DNA from: Planctomyces sp. SH-PL14
GTDB taxonomy: Bacteria > Planctomycetota > Planctomycetia > Planctomycetales > Planctomycetaceae
Direction: 5' to 3'
Assembly: GCF_001610835.1 (NCBI RefSeq)
Contig: NZ_CP011270.1
Coordinates: forward strand, 4,172,001 to 4,236,000
Length of the DNA stretch: 64,000 bases
Shown: one piece after another, positions 10,430-60,616 of the stretch
Layout of the letters: each line of letters begins with the position of its first letter
Numbering within the stretch: the first letter of the stretch is position 1
Notes under the pieces: generated by a model
Databases searched by the model: none
What the model was told of the DNA's origin: nothing
The model's input: only the letters and a program-made list of their open reading frames with translations
Position numbers and translations under genes: made by a program

Positions 10430-10467
10430 CCCGGAATCTTCGCAGATCGTGCCGGCCCCTGTCACGT

Positions 10468-10777
10468 CGTTGCCGGCGCGGCGTCCATTGCTCAAACCCG
10501 ACGTGCCACGGCAGCCGGGGTCAAGGGGGTCTCACCCCCTTGCCGCCGGAGGCACTTCCATGAGGAACCGTGGTACGCAACGGACGACCGCTTTGTGGAA
10601 CCGGCGTTGAGGAATCCCCCCTCGCTCTGGAATCCCCGCGGGTTGGTGAGGGGGCATCCGGCACCGCGTCCGCGTTTGGACACGACCTCCTTCAGAAATC
10701 TCTCGACGGCCAGGCCTCCGGCGGGCAAGAGGGCGTTGCCCCCTTGCATCCCCCACCAGGGTGCCCCTGGACCCGGT
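10468..10777 (+). repeat. Structured intergenic repeat, family A, copy 1 (forward)
   Basis: Landmarks in order are TTGCCGGC near 10470, TCAAACCCGACGTGCCACGG, a left hairpin GGTCAAGGGGG-TCTCA-CCCCCTTGCC, the GGAGGC block, AACCGTGGTACGCAACGGACG, CTTTGTGGAACCGGCGTTGAGG, the inner hairpin around CGTCCGCGTTTGGACAC, and GACGGCCAGGCCTCCGGCGGGC. The right hairpin AGAGGGCGTTGCCCCCTTGC follows, and the copy ends with CCAGGGTGCCCCTGGACCCGG. No plausible protein is encoded. It occupies the divergent gap between the CHAD gene and the secreted nitrilase gene, so promoters of either could be in or beside it. Confidence 0.93.
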
Positions 10778-10842
10778 GATGACTCGCGGTGAGGGCCGGT
10801 TCCCCTTACCCTAATCAAGCGCTCGCTTCCCGGAGATCGGCC

Positions 10843-14626: not shown

Positions 14627-14749
14627 GATGAGGCTCTTCAGGGCGGTCCGCGTTTCCAGGTCGCCAGTCAGTATCGAGGGGGGGCCTGAGACCTGACTGA
14701 AGCGAACCTGAAATCGGCTTTATCTTCGGCACGATGCCCGAAGCGTGTC

Positions 14750-15049
14750 CCCGCCGGCACGACTCCCATAGCTCAAACCCAATGTGCTACGGCCACTTGG
14801 GGTCAAGGGCCCAAAAAACAACACAGACCCCCTTGCCGCCGGAGGCGCTTCGATGAGGAACCGTGGTAAGCAACGGACGTCCCCTTTGTGAAACCCGCGG
14901 GTTGATGAGGGGGGCACCCGGCACGGTGTCCGCGCTTGGACACGTACTCCTTCAGACATCTCTCGACGGCCAGGCCTCCGGCGGGCAAAGGGCCAGAAAA
15001 ACAACACAGGCCCCTCTGCACTCCCCACCAGGGGATCCCTGGACCCGGT
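14750..15049 (+). repeat. Structured intergenic repeat, family A, copy 2 (forward; variant hairpin tips)
   Basis: Family landmarks are present: GCCGGCACG, TAGCTCAAACCCAATGTG, AACCGTGGTAAGCAACGG, inner hairpin GTGTCCGCGCTTGGACAC, GACGGCCAGGCCTCCGG, and the CTGGACCCGG end. Two differences stand out. The left hairpin tip is replaced by GGGCCC-AAAAAACAACACAG-ACCCCC, and the right tip by GGGCC-AGAAAAACAACACA-GGCCCC, so both ends of this copy carry the same A-rich motif. In addition about 40 bp around the usual GGCGTTGAGGACT block is missing. It lies in the divergent gap upstream of the hydrolase gene at 15164. Confidence 0.92.
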
Positions 15050-15163
15050 GAAACAGCAACAACGGGTCGTGTACGAGACGCTCCGAACCCTTTCGATCGC
15101 ACGTTTGTGAAGACTATGCTCCCCACGGCTTCAATCTCGTGAAATTCATCGAGAGGAAACGCA

Positions 15164-24354: not shown

Positions 24355-24371
24355 CGAGCGGCGCGCCGTCA

Positions 24372-24700
24372 ACCGGGTCCAGGGGGTACCCCTGGTGGGG
24401 GATGCAAGGGGGTCACACCCCCTTGCCCGCCGGAGGCCTGGCCGTCGAGAGATGTCTGAAGGAGAGCGTGTCCAAACGCGGACAGCGTGCCGGATGTCCC
24501 CTCACCAGCCAGCGGGGATTGCAAAGCGAGCTGTGTGGTTGGTGTAAGTCCTCAGCACTGGCACCACAAAGCGGACATCCGTTGTGTCCCACGGTTCCGC
24601 GACGAAAATGCCTCCGGCGGCAAGGGGGCGTGGCCCCCTTGACCCCAGGCTGCCGTGGCACGTTGGGTTTGAAGTGACATAGCCGTGCCGGCAAGGACGC
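24372..24700 (-). repeat. Structured intergenic repeat, family A, copy 3 (reverse)
   Basis: In reverse orientation it begins ACCGGGTCCAGGGGGTACC and the hairpin GCAAGGGGG-TCACA-CCCCCTTGC. It runs through CCGCCGGAGGCCTGGCCGTC, the inner hairpin GTGTCCAAACGCGGACAG, and the left hairpin CAAGGGGGCGTGGCCCCCTTG. It ends with CCACGGCACG-type and TTGGGTTTGAAGTGACATAG wording and GCCGGCAAGGACG. It lies between two genes in the same direction (dehydrogenase and HtrA), starting 18 bp after the first stop. Confidence 0.93.
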
Positions 24701-24782
24701 GGTTCGAGCCAGGTCCGGAGCGGATGCTCCGGTGGCTTCCTGATAGAGTGAGGTCTGGAATCGAGGCCACAGGAAAAGTCCC

Positions 24783-26363: not shown

Positions 26364-26434
26364 CTCCGGATATCCGTGTTCCGGTCGGCTTCGGGTGCAT
26401 TCGACGATGGGTGGTCGCCCAATACGGGCCGAAT

Positions 26435-26757
26435 CGGGTCCAGGGGCACCCTGGTGGGGGATGCAAGGGGGCAACGCCCTCTTGCCCGCCGGAGGCTGTC
26501 TCGTCGGACACCATCGAAAGGAGCACGTGTCCAAGCGCGGACACCGTGCCGTATGCCCCCTCACCAACCCGCGGGGATTGCAAAGCCAGCGGTGTATTTT
26601 TAGGGAGTTCTCAACGCCGGTATCACACAGGGGACATCCGTCGTGTACCACGGTTCCTCATAGAAGCGCCTCCGGCGGCAAGGGGGCGTGGCCCCCTTGA
26701 CCCCAGGCTGCCGTGGCACATTGGGTTTGACGTGGCATAGCCGCACCGGCAAGGACG
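26435..26757 (-). repeat. Structured intergenic repeat, family A, copy 4 (reverse)
   Basis: The copy begins CGGGTCCAGGGGCACCCTGG and the hairpin GCAAGGGGG-CAACG-CCCTCTTGC. It keeps the inner hairpin GTGTCCAAGCGCGGACACC and the left hairpin CAAGGGGGCGTGGCCCCCTTG. It ends TTGGGTTTGACGTGGCATAG and CACCGGCAAGGACG. The block after GCCGGAGG differs from most copies (CTGTCTCGTCGGACACCATC instead of CTGGCCGTCGAGAGATG), a variant shared in part with the copies at 47031 and 60215. It lies between the HtrA and DUF4404 genes. Confidence 0.93.
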
Positions 26758-26919
26758 CCGTTTGAGCGAGCGGAACAAGGCGTCTCGTTCTTCGTTGACC
26801 GACCGCCATCCACCGAATGCACCTGTCAGCTTCGAGCATCAGGACGCGGTACCCGTCGGTTGGCCCGCCGAGTACGATGGAGCCGTGATCGAAGCTGGCA
26901 CTCAGACGAGGACGTTGTG

Positions 26920-31874: not shown

Positions 31875-31950
31875 CGCAATCCTCTCCGGAGAGCCGTGGG
31901 GCAATTGAGGGAGAGGATATCGCGCCGTGGTGAGACTGTCGCTCAGAACC

Positions 31951-32020
31951 GTCCTTTCCGGCGCGACGTTGATAGCTCAAACCCAACGTGCGACGGCAGC
32001 CGGGGTCAAGGGGGCAACCC
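31951..32020 (+). repeat. Family A repeat, palindromic copy 5, left half (ends at IS insertion)
   Basis: The left half reads GTCCTTTCCGGCGCGACG, TTGATAGCTCAAACCCAACG, then TGCGACGGCAGCCGGGG and TCAAGGGGGCAACCC, where the IS4-like element begins at 32021. Its last ten bases (32011-32020, GGGGCAACCC) recur directly after the element. Together with 33542-33612 it forms an almost perfect inverted repeat, so this copy consists of two family A left ends facing each other, without the roughly 200-bp interior. Confidence 0.9.
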
Positions 32021-33541
32021 CAGTGCTGTGACGATGATTGGGTTTACGTAAGCGATTCTCGACAGGAGACTTAGGCCGTAAGGGGTGTTCGGAAACACGC
32101 TCGTTTTGAACAAGGAGGGAAGCATGGAGGGGTTTTGTCGCGAGGTCGCTGCGCGTCTTCCTCTAGCTCAGGCCGTCATGAGACTCTTCCGGTGGATCTG
32201 TGAGGAGGAGTTCCTGGCCGAGGTCTTTCGGCAGCACCGCGGCCGATCCTACGAGAAGCTCCTGACGTTTCCCCAGATGGTCCAGCTGGTCTGTGACGCG
32301 CTCCTGCAGCACCATGGAAGCGTGCGGCAGAGCTTTGCCCGAGCCAAGGAAGAAGGCGAGATCGATTGCGGGATCCACTCCGTCTATCGCAAGCTCGCCG
32401 ACCTGCCGCTGTCACTCTCGATGGGCTTCTTCCATGAGACCACCAAGCGTCTCCAGCAGGTGTTCCCACAGGAGGTGAACTACTGCCCCATCCCCCCGTC
32501 CCTGGGAGAGTTCGAGATCCTGTGCCACGACGGCAAGACCATCAAGCACGTCCAGAAACGGCTGAAGGTGTTGCAGGGGATCTCCGGGAGTCTTCTCGGG
32601 GGCCGATTGGTCGTCAGTCAGTCCTATCGGACCGGCATGGCGGTGGCGCTCTCGGCCAGTGAAGACGGCGAGAGCGGAGAGACTCGCCTCTTGCCAGAAG
32701 CCTTGCGGCAAACCCGGGAAGTGATCGCCAGAACGCGGCTGCATGTGTGCGATCGGGGCTACTGCGGGTCGCCCCAGATGAACGCCTGCCAGGAACACGG
32801 GGACCATTTTTTCCTGCGATTTCACAAGCAGCGGCTGGCTTTTCACGAGAATGGCGACTGGGAACCCGCAGAGGGAATGGACCGTTATGGACGGTCCTAC
32901 ACGGAGGACTGGGGCTGGCTGGGCGGCCCCGATCATCCCGAGCGACGTCCCGTTCGGCGGATTCAGTTGCACCGCCCCGGGATCAAGGACGAACTGATCC
33001 TGCTGACGGATCTGGAAGATCCTGATCAGTACCCGGCCGACGACCTGCTGGAGGCCTATCTCAAGAGGTGGAACATCGAGCGGATGTTCCAGCAGGTGAC
33101 GGAAGTCTTCTCCCTGGAGTCGCTGATCGGGAGCAGCCCGAAGGCGACGGTGTTCCAGGCCTCCTTCTGCTTCCTGCTCTACAACCTGATCCAGGTGCTG
33201 CGGGCGTATATTGCGGAGGGGCAGGAGATCGAGTCTGTGGAGACGATCTCATCGGAGTTGCTGTTCGTGGATGTGCACCGTCAGTTGAACGGGTGGACGG
33301 AGCTGCTGGACGTCTCTCAGACGGTGGATCAGCTCCCTCCACTGATGAGCGTATCGGATGTGATCGACCACCTGAGGGAGCTGCTGGGGACGCGGTGGAC
33401 GGATCGCTGGTGGAAGTCACCGTCGAACACGCACCGGAGCGCCAAGGTCAAAGCCAAGAAGCCTGTTCGAGGAGGCCACGCCGCCGTGTTCCGCATCCTG
33501 CAGACCCAAAAGGTCAGGAGGAAAACATAGTCACAGCACTG
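32021..33541 (+). mobile_element. IS4-family-like insertion sequence, complete
   Basis: The element is 1521 bp. Its ends are inverted repeats: CAGTGCTGTGAC-G-ATG at 32021 and CAT-A-GTCACAGCACTG ending at 33541 (12 of 12 matching, then about 4 of the next 8). It is flanked by a direct repeat GGGGCAACCC (32011-32020 and 33542-33551). The boundary is ambiguous by one base at each end, so the duplication may be 10-12 bp, the usual range for IS4 and IS231 relatives. One transposase gene fills it. The uninterrupted gene and perfect duplication suggest a recent insertion. The target is the centre of a palindromic repeat copy. Confidence 0.93.
32124..33530 (+). CDS. IS4-family DDE transposase
   Basis: The 468-residue protein carries out cut-and-paste transposition by DDE chemistry. 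The acidic residues are visible: Asp136 in CHDGKTIK, Asp210 in VCDRGYCGS and Glu319 in RWNIERMFQ. The IS4 C-terminal signature Y-x2-R-x3-E-x6-K is present as YLKRWNIE, but the final Lys position is occupied by Thr (RMFQQVTEVF). The start at ATG 32124 is preferred because AAGGAGGG lies five bases ahead; a GTG at 32085 is also in frame but lacks such a site. The stop TAG at 33528-33530 lies only 11 bp inside the right end of the element. Confidence 0.92.
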   Translation: MEGFCREVAARLPLAQAVMRLFRWICEEEFLAEVFRQHRGRSYEKLLTFPQMVQLVCDALLQHHGSVRQSFARAKEEGEIDCGIHSVYRKLADLPLSLSMGFFHETTKRLQQVFPQEVNYCPIPPSLGEFEILCHDGKTIKHVQKRLKVLQGISGSLLGGRLVVSQSYRTGMAVALSASEDGESGETRLLPEALRQTREVIARTRLHVCDRGYCGSPQMNACQEHGDHFFLRFHKQRLAFHENGDWEPAEGMDRYGRSYTEDWGWLGGPDHPERRPVRRIQLHRPGIKDELILLTDLEDPDQYPADDLLEAYLKRWNIERMFQQVTEVFSLESLIGSSPKATVFQASFCFLLYNLIQVLRAYIAEGQEIESVETISSELLFVDVHRQLNGWTELLDVSQTVDQLPPLMSVSDVIDHLRELLGTRWTDRWWKSPSNTHRSAKVKAKKPVRGGHAAVFRILQTQKVRRKT

Positions 33542-33612
33542 GGGGCAACCCCTTGACCCCAGGCTGCCGTCGCACGTTGGGTTTGAGCTATCAAGCCGTG
33601 CCGGCAAGGACG
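33542..33612 (-). repeat. Family A repeat, palindromic copy 5, right half
   Basis: Directly after the insertion element the repeat resumes as GGGGCAACCCCTTGACCCC, AGGCTGCCGTCGCACG, TTGGGTTTGAGCTATCAAGC and CGTGCCGGCAAGGACG. Read on the other strand it matches the left half at 31951-32020 in 41 of 42 positions over the AGCTCAAACCC to CAAGGGG core. One extra T before GGGGTC is the only difference there. Its outer end GCCGGCAAGGACG is the same as in copies 3 and 4. Confidence 0.9.
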
Positions 33613-33647
33613 AGGTTCGAGCCCAGCGGATACCAGCGCCCGGTGGC

Positions 33648-36990: not shown

Positions 36991-37013
36991 TCGCCGGAAG
37001 CTCAAACGTGCGA

Positions 37014-37335
37014 TCGCCGGCACGGTGATGCCACGTCAAACCCAATGTGCCACGGCCGCTGGGGTCAAGGGGGCCACGCCCCCTTGCCGCCGGAGGCATT
37101 TTCGTCGCGGAACCGTGGGACACAACGGATGTCCCCTTTGTGGGACCGGCGTTGAGGACTCCCTCAGACTACACCGCTCGCTTTGCAATCCCCGCGGTTT
37201 GCTGAGGGGGGCATCCGACACGGCGTCCGCGCTTGGACACCCGCTCCTTCAGAGAGATCGACACCGGACGGGCCTCCGGCGGGCAAGAGGGCGTTGCCCC
37301 CTTGCATCCCCCACCAGGGTGCCCCTGGACCCGGT
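37014..37335 (+). repeat. Structured intergenic repeat, family A, copy 6 (forward)
   Basis: It starts CGCCGGCACGGTGATGCCAC, TCAAACCCAATGTGCCACGG, and the left hairpin CAAGGGGGCCACGCCCCCTTG. The interior keeps AACCGTGGGACACAACGG, CTTTGTGGGACCGGCGTTG and the inner hairpin GCGTCCGCGCTTGGACAC. The segment before CCTCCGGCGGGC is altered (GAGAGATCGACACCGGACGG). The right hairpin AGAGGGCGTTGCCCCCTTGC and the terminal CCAGGGTGCCCCTGGACCCGG are intact. It lies between convergent genes (GNAT and sucD). Confidence 0.93.
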
Positions 37336-37349
37336 ATTGGGTTGATGTC

Positions 37350-43427: not shown

Positions 43428-44153
43428 ATGCCGTCCCTTCTCGTCACGCTCTGCACCTACAACGAGCGTGAGAACATCGAGCGTCTGCTCCCCGAGATCT
43501 TTGCCGCGGCGCCGCAGGCGCACGTTCTCGTCATCGACGACAGTTCTCCGGACGGGACGGGGCAGTACGCCCAGGGGATCTCCGAGCAGGATCCGCGGGT
43601 GCATGTTCTCCACCGGCCCGTGAAGGAGGGGCTGGGCGCTGCGACGGCCGCCGGGATGCAGTGGGGGATTGATCACGGGTACGAGCTGCTGCTCAACATG
43701 GATGCCGACTTTTCGCATCCGCCGCGGTACATCCCGGACCTCGTGGCCGCGATGGACCGGGCGGATGTCGCGATCGCCTCCCGCTACGTTCCCGGGGGAA
43801 AGATCGTGAACTGGGGGCTGAAGCGGCATGTGATGAGCCGCACGATCAACTTCTACGCCCGGGTGATCCTGGGGCTGTCGACGCGGGACAACAGCGGAAG
43901 TTTTCGCTGTTACCGGGCGTCCAAGCTGGCGGAGATTCAGCCGAGCCGGCTGCGGGCGAAGGGCTACGCGATTCAGGAAGAGTTGCTCTATCGTTGCCGC
44001 AAGGTGGGCTGCCGTTTCGTCGAGGTCCCGTTCACGTTCGAGGAGCGGCGGTTCGGCACGACGAAGATCAGTCTCAAGGAGGCGATCGACGCTCCGCTGG
44101 CGCTGCTGAAGATCCGTCTGCAGGGATATCCGCGCCTGCCGGTACGACGTTAA
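43428..44153 (+). CDS. Polyprenol-phosphate glycosyltransferase, dolichol-phosphate-mannose-synthase-like (GT2)
   Basis: The 241-residue cytosolic GT2 enzyme transfers a sugar from a nucleotide donor to a polyprenyl phosphate. It shows LVTLCTYNERENIERLLPEI (residues 4-23), VIDDSSPDGTGQYA, the metal-binding NMDADFSHPP (about 94-103), VPGGKIVNWGLKRH, DNSGSFRCYRAS, and the late FTFEERRFGTTKISLKEAID. It has no C-terminal membrane helices, like the soluble DPM1 type. The last codons and the stop fall inside the start of a family A repeat copy. Confidence 0.92.
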   Translation: MPSLLVTLCTYNERENIERLLPEIFAAAPQAHVLVIDDSSPDGTGQYAQGISEQDPRVHVLHRPVKEGLGAATAAGMQWGIDHGYELLLNMDADFSHPPRYIPDLVAAMDRADVAIASRYVPGGKIVNWGLKRHVMSRTINFYARVILGLSTRDNSGSFRCYRASKLAEIQPSRLRAKGYAIQEELLYRCRKVGCRFVEVPFTFEERRFGTTKISLKEAIDAPLALLKIRLQGYPRLPVRR

Positions 44154-44445
44154 TAGCTCAAACCCAACGTGCTGCGGCCGCTGGGGTCAAGGGGGCCACG
44201 CCCCCTTGCCGCCGGAGGCACTTTCGTAGCGGAACCGTGGGACATAACGGGCGTTCCCTTTGTGGTACCGGCGTTGAGAACTCACCGCTCGCTTTACAAT
44301 CCTCGCCGGTTGGTGAGGGGGGCATCCGGTACGGTGCCCGCGCTTGGACACGCCTTCCTTCAGACATCTCTCGACGGCCAGGCCTCCGGCGGGCAAGAGG
44401 GCGTTGCCCCCTTGCATCCCCCACCAGGGTGCCCCTGGACCCGGC
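44134..44445 (+). repeat. Structured intergenic repeat, family A, copy 7 (forward)
   Basis: The copy begins GCCTGCCGGTACGACGTTAA, continues TAGCTCAAACCCAACGTGC, and has the left hairpin CAAGGGGGCCACGCCCCCTTG, AACCGTGGGACATAACGG, CTTTGTGGTACCGGCGTTGAG, the inner hairpin (GTGCCCGCGCTTGGACAC), CGACGGCCAGGCCTCCGG and the terminal CCAGGGTGCCCCTGGACCCGG. The first 20 bp overlap the 3' end of the glycosyltransferase gene, whose stop TAA is at 44151-44153. It lies between two genes in the same direction. Confidence 0.93.
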
Positions 44446-44535
44446 TTAGAAGGGTCGTCGTCTGGAATCGAACTCCTCCGACAACCTCCCTATCCTTTGG
44501 GGACTTTCTTTACCTCCATCAACCCAACATCGCCC

Positions 44536-46978: not shown

Positions 46979-47030
46979 TCGGGGGAGTGTGCCGCATCCT
47001 GTCGCACGGGGCCAGCGTGAACCCCGTCGT

Positions 47031-47335
47031 TGCCGGCACAGCTATGCCACCTCAAGCCCAATGTGCGACGGCAGCCGGGGTCAAGGGGGTGACCCCTTGC
47101 CGCCGGAGGCGCTTCCATGAGGAACCGTGGTCGGCGACGGACGTCCGCTTTGTGGAGCCGGCGTTGAGGACTCGCCGTTCGCTCTGGACTCTCCGTGGGT
47201 TGATGTGGGGGCATTCGACACGTTGTCCGCGTTTGGACACACACTCCTTCCGACGGTGCCCGACGAGACAGGCCTCCGGCGGGCAAGGGGATTCTCCCCC
47301 CTGCACCCCCTGACCAGGGTGCCCCTGGACCCGGT
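47031..47335 (+). repeat. Structured intergenic repeat, family A, copy 8 (forward)
   Basis: The copy begins TTGCCGGCACAGCTATGCCAC, then CTCAAGCCCAATGTGCGACGG. The left hairpin is short (CAAGGGGGTGACCCCTTG). The interior keeps AACCGTGGTCGGCGACGG, CTTTGTGGAGCCGGCGTTGAGG and TTGTCCGCGTTTGGACACAC. The right hairpin tip is CAAGGGGATTCTCCCCCCTG, and the end is CCAGGGTGCCCCTGGACCCGG. Both tips have lost the usual GGGGGC/GCCCCC wording but retain stems. It lies between two minus-strand genes. Confidence 0.92.
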
Positions 47336-47363
47336 TAGGGCTATGCCTTGGAGAAAAACTCAC

Positions 47364-50169: not shown

Positions 50170-50249
50170 GGGGGACGTGGAGTCAGGGAGGTAGGCGGGA
50201 GGTTCCACGATCATCGCGACCGGGTTGAAGCGAGGAAAGTTCACCCCTC

Positions 50250-50559
50250 ACCGGGTCCAGGGGCACCCTGGTGGGGGATGCAAGGGGGCAACGCCCTCTT
50301 GCCCGCCGGAGGCCTGGCCGTCGAGAGATGCCTGAAGGAGTCCGTGTCCGAGCGCGGACACCGTGCCGGATGCCCCTCACCAACACGTCCTCGAATACAC
50401 AGCGAGCGTGGAGTCCTCAACGCCGGTACCACAAAGCGGTCGTCCGTTGCTTACCGCGGGTCCTCACAGAAGTGCCTCCGGCGGCAAGGGGGTGAGACCC
50501 CCTTGACCCCAGCGGCCGTGGCACATTGGGTTTGAGCTATGGAGTCGTGCCGGCAAGCG
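50250..50559 (-). repeat. Structured intergenic repeat, family A, copy 9 (reverse)
   Basis: It begins ACCGGGTCCAGGGGCACCC and GCAAGGGGGCAACGCCCTCTTGC. It continues CGCCGGAGGCCTGGCCGTCG, the inner hairpin GTGTCCGAGCGCGGACACCG, GGTACCACAAAGCGG, and the left hairpin CAAGGGGGTGAGACCCCCTTG. It closes with CGGCCGTGGCACATTGGG, TTTGAGCTATGGAGTCGTGC and CGGCAAGCG. It lies between the acylphosphatase start and the end of the helicase gene, both on the minus strand. Confidence 0.93.
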
Positions 50560-50565
50560 TGGTTC

Positions 50566-52572
50566 TCAGATCAGCGGCCCTACGCCATCGTCCACGACCA
50601 CCCGGCAATCCGGCAAACTCTCCCGAAAAATCCGCCCGTAATACTTCGTCCGCATCCGCGGATCCAGAATCGCCACCACTCCCGTATCCGTCCGACTCCG
50701 AATCAACCGCCCGAACCCCTGCCGCAACTTGATCGCCGCCTCCGGCACCTGATACTCCATGAACGGGTTCCCCCCCCGCTCGCGAATCCGCTCCACCCGG
50801 GCCTCCAGCAGCGGATGATCCGGCACACTGAACGGCAGCTTCGTGATAATCACGTTCTGCAGCGCATCCCCGGGAACATCCACTCCCTGCCAGAACGTAT
50901 CCGTGCCGAACAAGACCGCCCGGCCATCCTGCCGAAACCGGTCCAGCATCAGCGAACGGTTCTGTCCCTGCCCCTGCGTCAGCAGCAGATAGTTGTGCTC
51001 GGCGCACCACCCCGTCAGCCGGTCGGCACACCCCTTGAGCATCTTGTAGCTCGTGAACAGCACGAACGCCCGGCCGTCGGTGTGGAGGATGTATCGCTTG
51101 ATCCGCTCGATACACGCCTCTTCAAAGGCCCGCGCCTGCTCCGTCGGATCCGGCATCCGGTCCGCCAGGATCAGCGTCGCCTGCTTCTTGTAGTCGAACG
51201 GACTGCCGAGCTTCACCTCGTCGGTCTTCGTCAGCCCCACGCGGGTCCGGAAGAACGAAAAGTCCTCGCGCCCCACCGAGAGCGTCGCACTCGCCAGGAT
51301 CACCGACGGAATCTTCCCGAACAGCTCGTCCCGCAGCGTCGGCCCGACCTCAATCGGCGAGCAGTACAGTGAAACCGAAGGAATCCGCCCGTGCGTCTCC
51401 TCGACCCAGTAGGCGGAATCGTCAAACCGCTGCGCCATCCAGCCGGCCAGCGATAGCGCCAAACCGTCGATCCGGTCCGCGGCGGCGACGAGCTCGATCT
51501 TCTGCTCTTCTTGGGAGACCTGGTTCTCCGCGTAGGTCCGGATCATCGACGAGAGCGTGTACATCTCGGGCGAGATGATGTCCGGAATCGGACATGGTTT
51601 CCGGAGCCGTCCGTTCGCCGCGGCGTTCTCCTGCTTCCACTCCGTGAGGTCGTGGAAGAACTCCGTGAACAGGGCCCGCAGCCGCATCACCAGCTTCTGG
51701 GCGTCCCCCAGGTTGTGGGCCAGCAGGAGCCCCTTCTGCGTCCGGTCGTTGTAGAGCTTGTTGAACAGGTAGTTCGCCTGCCCGCTCGTCACCGAGACCC
51801 CCAGGTGATCCCCCGCCACCCCTTCGAGGGTGTGGGCCTCGTCCAGGATCGCGACGTCGTACTCCGGCAGGACGCTCGCCCCCTCGCGACGGAGGGCGAG
51901 GTCCGAGAAGAACAGGGCGTGGTTCACGACGAGAAGGTCGGCGTTCCAGACCCGCCGCCGGGCCTTGTAGTAGAAGCAGTCGTCGTAGGTCGGACACCGC
52001 CGCCCCAGGCAGTTGCCGTGCTCGCTCCGGACCTCGTCCCACACGGTCCCGAGCGGGCGGAAGTCGAGATCGGCGAGACTCCCGTCGGTCGTCTGCCGGC
52101 TCCAGGCGCGGAGCTCCCGCGTCTGGATGAGTTCCTCTTCCTTCTCGAAGAGGACGCTCGACCGCTCCGTCGCCCCCTGCATCCGCCGCAGGCTGACGTA
52201 GTTGCTCCGCCCCTTCACCAGCACCGCGGAGAACTCGATCGGCAGGACCGCGTTCAGGAACGGGATGTCCCGCGCGATGAGCTGCTCCTGCAGGCTGATC
52301 GTGTGCGTGCTGACGACGATCTTCTTCCGCTTCCGGTCGGGAGGCTGCTGGCCCGCCGCCAGGATCGCTGGGACGAGATAGGCGAAGCTCTTGCCGACGC
52401 CGGTCCCCGCCTCGACGACGAGATGCCGCTGCTCCGCGATCGCGGCCGCCACGGCATCCGCCATTTCGATCTGCTCGGGCCGGCTCTCGTAGTTCGTCAG
52501 CCGCCGCGCAATGAAACCCTTCGGCCCGAGAACGTCGGCCGGGGTCAGGATCGAGGTTTCTCCGTCCGCCAT
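50566..52572 (-). CDS. DinG-like ATP-dependent DNA helicase (XPD/Rad3-type, superfamily 2)
   Basis: The 668-residue helicase has the Walker A motif EAGTGVGKS (about 54-62), a DEAH box (DEAHTLEG, near 240) and motif VI-like QGFGRLIRSRTDTGV near the C-terminus. Three Fe-S-type cysteines appear in the DinG spacing C-x4-C-x5-C (Cys188, Cys193, Cys199). The first of the usual four is Ser127 (GRSNYVSLRRMQ) instead of Cys. DinG-type helicases unwind R-loops and structured DNA. Its ATG (52572) shares one base with the stop TGA of the upstream FHA gene (TGATG), so the two are coupled. Confidence 0.88.
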   Translation of the reverse strand: MADGETSILTPADVLGPKGFIARRLTNYESRPEQIEMADAVAAAIAEQRHLVVEAGTGVGKSFAYLVPAILAAGQQPPDRKRKKIVVSTHTISLQEQLIARDIPFLNAVLPIEFSAVLVKGRSNYVSLRRMQGATERSSVLFEKEEELIQTRELRAWSRQTTDGSLADLDFRPLGTVWDEVRSEHGNCLGRRCPTYDDCFYYKARRRVWNADLLVVNHALFFSDLALRREGASVLPEYDVAILDEAHTLEGVAGDHLGVSVTSGQANYLFNKLYNDRTQKGLLLAHNLGDAQKLVMRLRALFTEFFHDLTEWKQENAAANGRLRKPCPIPDIISPEMYTLSSMIRTYAENQVSQEEQKIELVAAADRIDGLALSLAGWMAQRFDDSAYWVEETHGRIPSVSLYCSPIEVGPTLRDELFGKIPSVILASATLSVGREDFSFFRTRVGLTKTDEVKLGSPFDYKKQATLILADRMPDPTEQARAFEEACIERIKRYILHTDGRAFVLFTSYKMLKGCADRLTGWCAEHNYLLLTQGQGQNRSLMLDRFRQDGRAVLFGTDTFWQGVDVPGDALQNVIITKLPFSVPDHPLLEARVERIRERGGNPFMEYQVPEAAIKLRQGFGRLIRSRTDTGVVAILDPRMRTKYYGRIFRESLPDCRVVVDDGVGPLI

Positions 52573-60072: not shown

Positions 60073-60214
60073 GGGGGGAAGAGTAGCGGACCGGTTCTTG
60101 CGAGATGAGGGCTGTCGAGCGGATGGAGATCTCCAAGGGGAACTTTCCAGTCGTTTTCCGGTCGCGGGCCGCGTCATGTTGGCTACTGCGTCCCCCGACC
60201 TAACCGGCCCAAGA

Positions 60215-60370
60215 ACCGGGTCCAGGGGCACCCCTGGTGGCGTGCAGGGGCCACCCCCTGCCCGCCGGAGGCCGTCTCGTCGGACACCGTTGGAAACCTT
60301 GTGTGTCCAAGCGCGGACACCGTGCCGTATGCCCCCTCACCAACCCGCTGGGAGTGCGAAGCCAGCGGTG
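60215..60370 (-). repeat. Family A repeat, copy 10 (reverse, truncated)
   Basis: The copy begins ACCGGGTCCAGGGGCACCCC and a shortened hairpin GTGCAGGGGCCACCCCCTGC. It has CCGCCGGAGGCCGTCTCGTCG, the inner hairpin GTGTCCAAGCGCGGACACCG, and CCTCACCAACCCGCTGGGAG, then stops at about 60370. The whole left end (the GGTCAAGGGGG hairpin and the TCAAACCCAATG part) is missing. It lies in the divergent gap between hrpB and the membrane/spermidine-synthase fusion gene. Confidence 0.88.
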
Positions 60371-60616
60371 TGGGTTGATGGAGCCAATGCAAAATGGGAA
60401 ATGCAAGTTGAAAAGTGCAAATTGCCGCGGAGGAAGAAGATCTGGCGATCTCCCGGAACGGGCCCCACGGCAGTTGATCTTGCTCTCGTTTAGCCATTTT
60501 CCCTATAGACCGACGCAATTCCGGGGGGCCGGATGGTCTTCCCCCGATGGAAACGCGGGTTTTCGAAGGCGTCGCTGTCTTCGGGGGCCTGTCTTTAACG
60601 CCAGGGATGGTGTTCC
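60371..60616. promoter_or_regulatory. Upstream region of the membrane/spermidine-synthase fusion gene
   Basis: After the truncated repeat comes a lower-GC stretch with TGCAAAATGGGAAATGCAAG and TTGAAAAGTGCAAATTG, a wording again reminiscent of simple dispersed repeats. Then follow a relatively AT-rich part (about 60470-60520, CTCGTTTAGCCATTTTCCC, then TATAGACCG) that could hold a promoter, and a hairpin-prone GGGGGCC segment. No gene is evident. The next start codon is GTG 60617. Confidence 0.4.

Follow-up and report, generated by a model that had tools for sequence, protein, structure and literature searches.

The window, a 64-kb stretch of the Planctomyces sp. SH-PL14 genome, contained eight full copies of an intergenic repeat of ~320 bp, as well as a left-truncated copy and a locus interrupted by an insertion sequence (IS) (Table 1). 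The hairpins delimited at 10520-10777 by the initial annotation were part of one of these copies; its right edge matched the conserved right end (10777, sequence GGACCCGGT), whereas its left edge had cut off an outer arm of ~60 nt. At both ends of the repeat, a hairpin unit adjoined an 11-nt tag shared by the two (GCCTCCGGCGG), and the units were inverted with their tags facing inward. In alignment columns (1-330, equivalent to about 10455-10784 of the window) the order was left arm, hairpin 1 (68-88), reverse tag (88-99), inner segment (100-258), forward tag (260-270), hairpin 2 (271-293) and hairpin 3 (302-316), followed by GGACCCGG. Tags, stems and right end were mostly 97-100% conserved in 247 full copies, and the inner segment carried rare variants at 2-5% per site across the same copies.

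Table 1. Repeat copies in the 64-kb window and parts of the copy at 10462-10781 (window coordinates; ".", no strand assigned)
Feature	Position	Strand	Basis or remark
Full repeat copy	10462..10781	+ (top strand as written)	nhmmer model 8-327; left edge fuzzy
Left outer arm, family consensus GAACCGCGTCCTTGCCGGC...CTCAAACCCAACGTGC...ACGGCAGCCGGGGT	10462..10521	+	missing in left-truncated copies
Hairpin 1, CAAGGGGG-TCTCA-CCCCCTTG	10522..10542	.	tip closing pair covaries CG/TA
Left-unit tag, GCCGCCGGAGGC on top, GCCTCCGGCGGC on bottom	10542..10553	-	97-100% conserved
Inner segment	10554..10713	+	less conserved; 3-5% rare variants per site mid-segment
Inner hairpin, (C)GTCC-GCGTTT-GGAC(A)	10667..10682	.	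one mismatch here; family without covariation
Right-unit tag, GCCTCCGGCGG	10714..10724	+	conservation and cross-phylum counts
Hairpin 2, GCAAGAGGGC-GTT-GCCCCCTTGC	10725..10747	.	one irregularity, A.C on top, G.T on bottom
Hairpin 3, CCAGGG-TGC-CCCTGG	10756..10770	.	at right end
Further full copy	14740..15052	+	nhmmer
Further full copy	24369..24707	-	nhmmer
Further full copy	26431..26764	-	nhmmer
Further full copy	37005..37339	+	nhmmer
Further full copy	44127..44449	+	nhmmer
Further full copy	47018..47338	+	nhmmer
Further full copy	50247..50567	-	nhmmer
Left-truncated copy, right end intact	60211..60371	-	model 161-327
Two inverted left arms flanking IS	31947..33620	.	IS 32022-33540 at hairpin-1 tip

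The 247 full copies came from 2.06 Mb (2.064 Mb from 26 places of the 8.44-Mb single-contig genome), and genome-wide the number was estimated at ~1,000, or ~3.9% of the 8.44 Mb. An 18-nt stretch from the left unit matched the own genome 965 times, vs. 0-4 times in each of 149 others of the order. Apart from a single 40-nt fragment in a member of the same family, a similarity search of the order recovered the repeat only in SH-PL14, the sole member of its genus among the genomes compared. No match was returned by an exact 35-mer scan of a contig collection (from which the own genome is possibly absent), by a plasmid search, or by Rfam at gathering scores in the 64-kb window. Similar copies were not clustered in space, neighbours being no more alike than distant copies, and with origin and terminus assumed there was no replichore orientation bias (72:65 and 52:58). 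Some copies were nested in a second repeat with arms like GTGCATTCGCCGGATGGTGGTCGGTC / GACCACCAATCGGCGGATGCACC (sampled loci L071, L072, L076, L079 and L087).

The tag was also counted outside the order. On the strand read as GCCTCCGGCGGC, it occurred 1,558 times in Desulfoluna limicola (reversed control 0), 669 times in D. butyratoxydans (control 3), 597 and 108 times in two Aminicenantes drafts (controls 0 and 2), 81 times in an acidobacterium (control 0), 55 times in Bilophila (control 8) and 15 times in a clostridium (control 0). Tag-plus-hairpin units were hugely expanded yet patchy across Desulfobacterota, Aminicenantes, an acidobacterium and a clostridium, and sampling of the own phylum and that of Desulfoluna gave a few greatly expanded genomes, with most at background. 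In Bilophila and Aminicenantes, the parts could be read in the same arrangement as here, with the tag followed by a CAAGGGG-type hairpin, then ACCCC, then a second hairpin. An open-literature search of incomplete coverage returned no paper on a bacterial repeat with the 11-mer tag and does not establish priority. In D. limicola (sampled loci L243-L252), eleven +/- tag pairs were spaced 128-345 nt apart; there the tag was the outer edge of the element, in the orientation opposite to that of the window repeat, and several hairpin types followed it.

The terminal hairpins described by the initial annotation were all present in the window copy, and its account of stems that stay paired while tips change held for the family: stem positions were 97-100% paired (hairpin 1, columns 68-74/82-88, and hairpin 3) over the 247 full copies, and 46, 51 and 33 distinct tip alleles were counted in hairpins 1, 2 and 3, respectively. 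Its main tip types were all recovered, including the A-rich variant CCAAGAAAACAACACAGG, found in both hairpin 1 and hairpin 2. This tip, 17-18 nt long, was occasionally inverted in hairpin 1, and its distribution looked as if tips had been exchanged between the two ends of the element. Column-pair statistics were compared with those of alignments simulated on a FastTree phylogeny using column-specific rates. In the covariation check that had been proposed, in-register tip pairs covaried as Watson-Crick pairs far above this null (280-284, CG 203, AT 29, TA 7; 76-80, CG 114, TA 62; 275-289, GC 108, AT 109; 279-285, GC 203, CG 15). Covariation was limited to a range of ~20 nt and does not by itself amount to proof, because non-pairing covariation of equal strength also occurred at short range (255-258, GA/AG; 290-295) and because templated mutation of quasi-palindromes can likewise yield palindromic tips. 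Most stem pairs were invariant, hence silent on the fold either way, and for either strand the covariation term that RNAalifold assigned to the whole alignment was only weak. For the inner hairpin, the pairing that had been claimed was observed (75-98% per position), whereas the pairing-preserving covariation was absent in the 247 copies, the changes being one-sided (213-228, C.A 48; 214-227, G.T 38); the window copy read CGTCC-GCGTTT-GGACA, with one C.A mismatch. Independent support for the fold came from the other phyla, in which different stems stood beside the same tag (CAAGGTG, CGAGGTG, GCAGGGGA, CCAGGGGA, CCAGAAACC and CAAGGGGGG), a correctly spaced hairpin following the tag in 52-100% of its occurrences vs. 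4-7% at random positions.

Exactly one non-Watson-Crick pair was present in hairpin 2 of 192 of 243 copies, vs. 118 +/- 8 expected if positions were independent. The irregular pair was movable, its usual position being 274, 275 or 276. Non-Watson-Crick cells on the top strand were A.C in 226 cases vs. G.T in 6, and a top-strand A.C is a G.T wobble if the bottom strand folds; judged from these base counts, the wobbles would favor the bottom strand as the folded strand. Hairpins 1 and 3 held few A.C or G.T cells, with no wobble asymmetry in hairpin 1, and the asymmetry in hairpin 2 rested mainly on three polymorphic positions. As few haplotypes were involved, the hairpin-2 pattern was given moderate statistical weight. 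TnpA_REP of E. coli works on a single strand and depends on an irregularity in the stem (PMC8266576); this likeness is a parallel in working and not proof of membership. Tip covariation, the stems of other phyla and the moving mismatch support selection on the terminal hairpins as folded nucleic acid, the interpretation first put forward, with the inner hairpin left unproven. For the same reasons, a linear duplex-binding site is less likely to be the target of the constraint.

Linkage among copies was assessed at 40 biallelic sites. The r2 was 0.29 at 1-5 nt, 0.06 at 13-25 nt and 0.008 at 26-50 nt. For sites separated by more than 50 nt it was at the chance level of 0.004-0.005 (0.004 beyond 100 nt, the sampling floor). 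All four gametes were present in 556 of 556 biallelic site pairs more than 50 nt apart. Beyond ~25 nt the copies were in linkage equilibrium, similarity in one half of the element barely predicted similarity in the other (Mantel r = 0.08), and the median nearest-neighbor distance was 10.6%, near the 11.0% of copies shuffled in 40-nt blocks and below the 12.2% of full shuffling; the closest pair of copies was no nearer than 6.8%. Each copy is a random mosaic of the others, unlike in an ordinary transposon family, so the mode of copying appears to be unusual. Two explanations are possible: copies traded short segments while being made or later, or they are old and have reached saturation under rules specific to each site. 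The many sites with just two alleles, often transversions (204, A50/C46; 120, G41/T50; 53, C41/G44), make exchange the likelier of the two; the transition/transversion ratio was uninformative as a test of age. Repeat families are normally handled as trees of copies, a treatment that would fail here.

For the truncation count, the element was cut into halves of equal length and at least 100 matched nt were required. A right half was missing from 1 of 266 left halves, and a left half from 47 of 327 right halves. Truncation points were scattered, the right blocks of truncated copies were intact (median 0 mismatches), and hairpin blocks were kept as well as in full copies. This one-sided loss suggests that copying starts at the right end. 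No target-site duplication above chance was found at any flank offset (k = 2-10), nor any flank complementarity, a test of insertion into palindromes, and both results argue against a DDE cut-and-paste MITE.

The preferred reading, with a probability of about one half (0.48), is a non-autonomous REPIN-like element that is copied via a folded single-stranded intermediate, starting at the right end. It draws on observed features: the high copy number, the location mostly between genes, the inverted tagged hairpins with constrained stems, the Watson-Crick covariation of their tips, the moving mismatch, the one-sided truncation, the linkage equilibrium, the lack of a target-site duplication, and the recurrence of tag-plus-hairpin units with other stems in other phyla. 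An enzyme acting in trans would recognize the folded single strand by its invariant tag, its stem and one required irregularity in hairpin 2. The bottom strand would be copied from the right end onward, with occasional early stops that leave left-truncated copies, and short stretches would be swapped between copies during copying or later repair, giving mosaics. Four of these points are inferences: single-stranded DNA as the folded form, activity of the bottom strand, copying from right to left, and mixing by template switching or gene conversion.

By analogy, an HUH (Y1-type) nuclease would be the leading candidate class of enzyme. Two Y1 transposase (Y1_Tnp) genes were found in the genome, with other palindromes in their flanks (CCTGGGGC..GCCCCAGG; GTAGGGTGC..). 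No tag-hairpin unit flanked either gene, and one repeat copy lay ~1.3 kb from one of them. In other tag-rich genomes the tag was nearby at 3 of the 30 Y1 loci fetched, which was no enrichment, and one tag-rich Aminicenantes draft had no Y1 match. Y1/RAYT genes were rejected as the cognate enzyme on account of the other palindromes in their flanks and this lack of enrichment elsewhere. The Y1 genes without a flanking unit, the 3 of 30 loci and the Y1-less draft count against the REPIN-like reading, as do the narrow basis of the wobble asymmetry and its absence from hairpin 1. Lagging-strand transposons that move as single-stranded DNA often show a replichore orientation bias, and the absence of such a bias here counts against copying through single-stranded DNA. 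Left truncation would be equally expected from reverse transcription at the right end, a further point against the REPIN-like reading.

A SINE-like retroposon would be a top-strand RNA that ends in hairpins 2 and 3 and is reverse-transcribed from its 3' end into targets at gene 3' ends, with early stops causing 5' truncation and template switching between transcripts causing mosaics. We consider this improbable. The truncation was one-sided with the right end intact (47 vs. 1), the left edge was fuzzy and the mosaic copies were at linkage equilibrium, all as a retroposon would have it, and five RVT_1 genes were present in the genome, but none was tied to the element. Against the retroposon, Rfam gave no match at these five loci; group II introns, whose RNA was thus not seen at them, were rejected as candidates. 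The two reverse transcriptases inspected look retron-like or defense-like, and two tag-carrying drafts had no RVT_1 match. The repeat resembled SINE/LINE retroposons in 5' truncation with a constant 3' end, in size (~300 bp), in copy number (~1,000) and in its fuzzy 5' edge, and differed from them in having no target-site duplication, no poly-A or conserved tail past the hairpin and no element-tied reverse transcriptase, and in hairpin-2 wobbles that match the bottom and not the top strand.

Also considered, and rated as quite improbable, was a linear duplex site serving a DNA-binding protein or an ordinary DDE MITE, its tips made palindromic by templated (quasi-palindrome) mutation. Such a site would allow for the invariance of most stem pairs and for covariation at short range that lacks pairing logic yet is equally strong (255-258, 290-295), and several unrelated ISs target the hairpin-1 tip, which indicates that some proteins use GGGGG-N-CCCCC as a duplex target. 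The window's IS carried a DDE transposase gene and a 12-bp target duplication (GGGGGCAACCCC) of the hairpin-1 tip (window 32010-33552), and at least four different ISs plus an insert of ~175 bp were located at this tip (tip inserts at genome positions 6633934, 706113, 749338, 958759 and 4088995). Insertion into REP or palindrome tips has been described for ISPpu9 (PMC8450116) and for IS231A, IS4 family (PMC2266710); like ISPpu9 and IS231A, ISs of SH-PL14 target a palindrome tip, that of hairpin 1 (~12-bp duplication), and here at least four unrelated ISs use one target. The ISs inside copies carried unrelated ends of their own, and no autonomous DDE transposon sharing the ends of the repeat was found in the sampled part of the genome. 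These ISs are parasites of the repeat and leave its dispersal unexplained. Against the duplex site, there was no target-site duplication of the repeat, hairpin 2 retained one mismatch and was not corrected to a perfect palindrome, and other phyla change the stem sequence while keeping a hairpin beside the tag. The IS-carrying locus of the window was rejected as an autonomous parent, as its IS has its own ends and the 12-bp hairpin-tip duplication.

By gene calls from our own simple codon-usage method, 214 of the 247 full copies were inside intergenic gaps. A local RNA function at gene 3' ends (mRNA stabilizer or attenuator) at mutation-selection equilibrium, with linkage equilibrium reflecting old, saturated, independent copies, would suit the distances from genes (median 16 nt from 3' ends vs. 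94 nt from 5' ends), the hairpin blocks kept in truncated copies and the lack of any pair closer than 6.8%, but was judged improbable given no orientation preference relative to tandem genes (47 same, 55 opposite), 53 copies between divergent genes, the many two-allele and often transversion sites, for which saturation would need odd site-specific rules, and the absence of the repeat from the other genomes of the order searched.

The REPIN-like element preferred above was compared with known systems. With the REPIN/RAYT (TnpA_REP) system, REP doublets and BIMEs (PMC3116915, PMC8266576), it shared high-copy intergenic palindromic units arranged as inverted pairs, ends that are conserved around a spacer that varies, a conserved motif next to the hairpin, an irregular stem, a non-autonomous nature and single units as remnants. 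The SH-PL14 repeat differed in length (~320 bp vs. ~100 bp), in tag (GCCTCCGGCGG vs. GTAG), in its three hairpins, long left arm and inward-facing tags, and in having no unit-flanked RAYT, truncation of the left end only, and linkage equilibrium. With neither a GTAG/CGTC tag nor a flanked RAYT, it was not classed as a GTAG/RAYT REPIN. CGTC-tagged REPs have a 4-nt tag and 8-9 bp stems and occur in Proteobacteria, Chlorobi, Bacteroidetes, Spirochaetes and Thermotogae (PMC3733652); like the present units, they are palindromic repeats with a tag, spread over several phyla and lacking a transposase gene of their own, and the SH-PL14 repeat differs in its 11-12 nt tag, GC-rich stems, much longer composite element and mostly other phyla. 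Elements derived from IS200/IS605 with subterminal hairpins shared hairpin ends, no target-site duplication and, putatively, strand-specific folding; unlike these, no autonomous partner with the same ends was found here, the genome having only two Y1 genes with other palindromes in their flanks.

A broader proposal, in which the repeat belongs to a cross-phylum class of tagged hairpins (tag GCCTCCGGCGGC) moved by a novel enzyme, with a start at one end and template switching among ~1,000 copies, is unlikely in our estimate. If true, the family would be a freely recombining population within one genome, each new copy being a recombinant and some being cut short. The spread of REP-like repeats is an open question, and the mechanism is testable here by sequencing new insertions. 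Four handles are offered: truncation for the direction of copying, linkage equilibrium for exchange, the movable mismatch for recognition, and the long cross-phylum tag. In the available parts of the literature compared, these are not reported for REPs; to a specialist, the unexpected ones would be the linkage equilibrium and the truncation on one side.

Several minor observations were recorded. Around TGCA (columns 289-296, window 10743-10750), mirror symmetry was kept while the bases changed in 238 of 247 copies (CT-TGCA-TC, TC-TGCA-CT, CC-TGCA-CC); C/C and T/T at mirrored positions fit the triplex (H-DNA) rule and not a hairpin, over few haplotypes. A 150-aa IS200-like Y1 gene (sampled locus L031:1380-2040) had CCTGGGGC(A/G)A(C/T)GCCCCAGG palindromes together with CTGAAGGGGCG motifs in its flanks, a REP-like family distinct from the present one. 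The reverse transcriptase gene at genome positions 331748-332380 (sampled locus L293) adjoined a 403-aa ORF, in a neighborhood that looks defense-type. In two other copies of the window's IS the flanks were exchanged, as would be expected had the ~131 kb separating the two been inverted.
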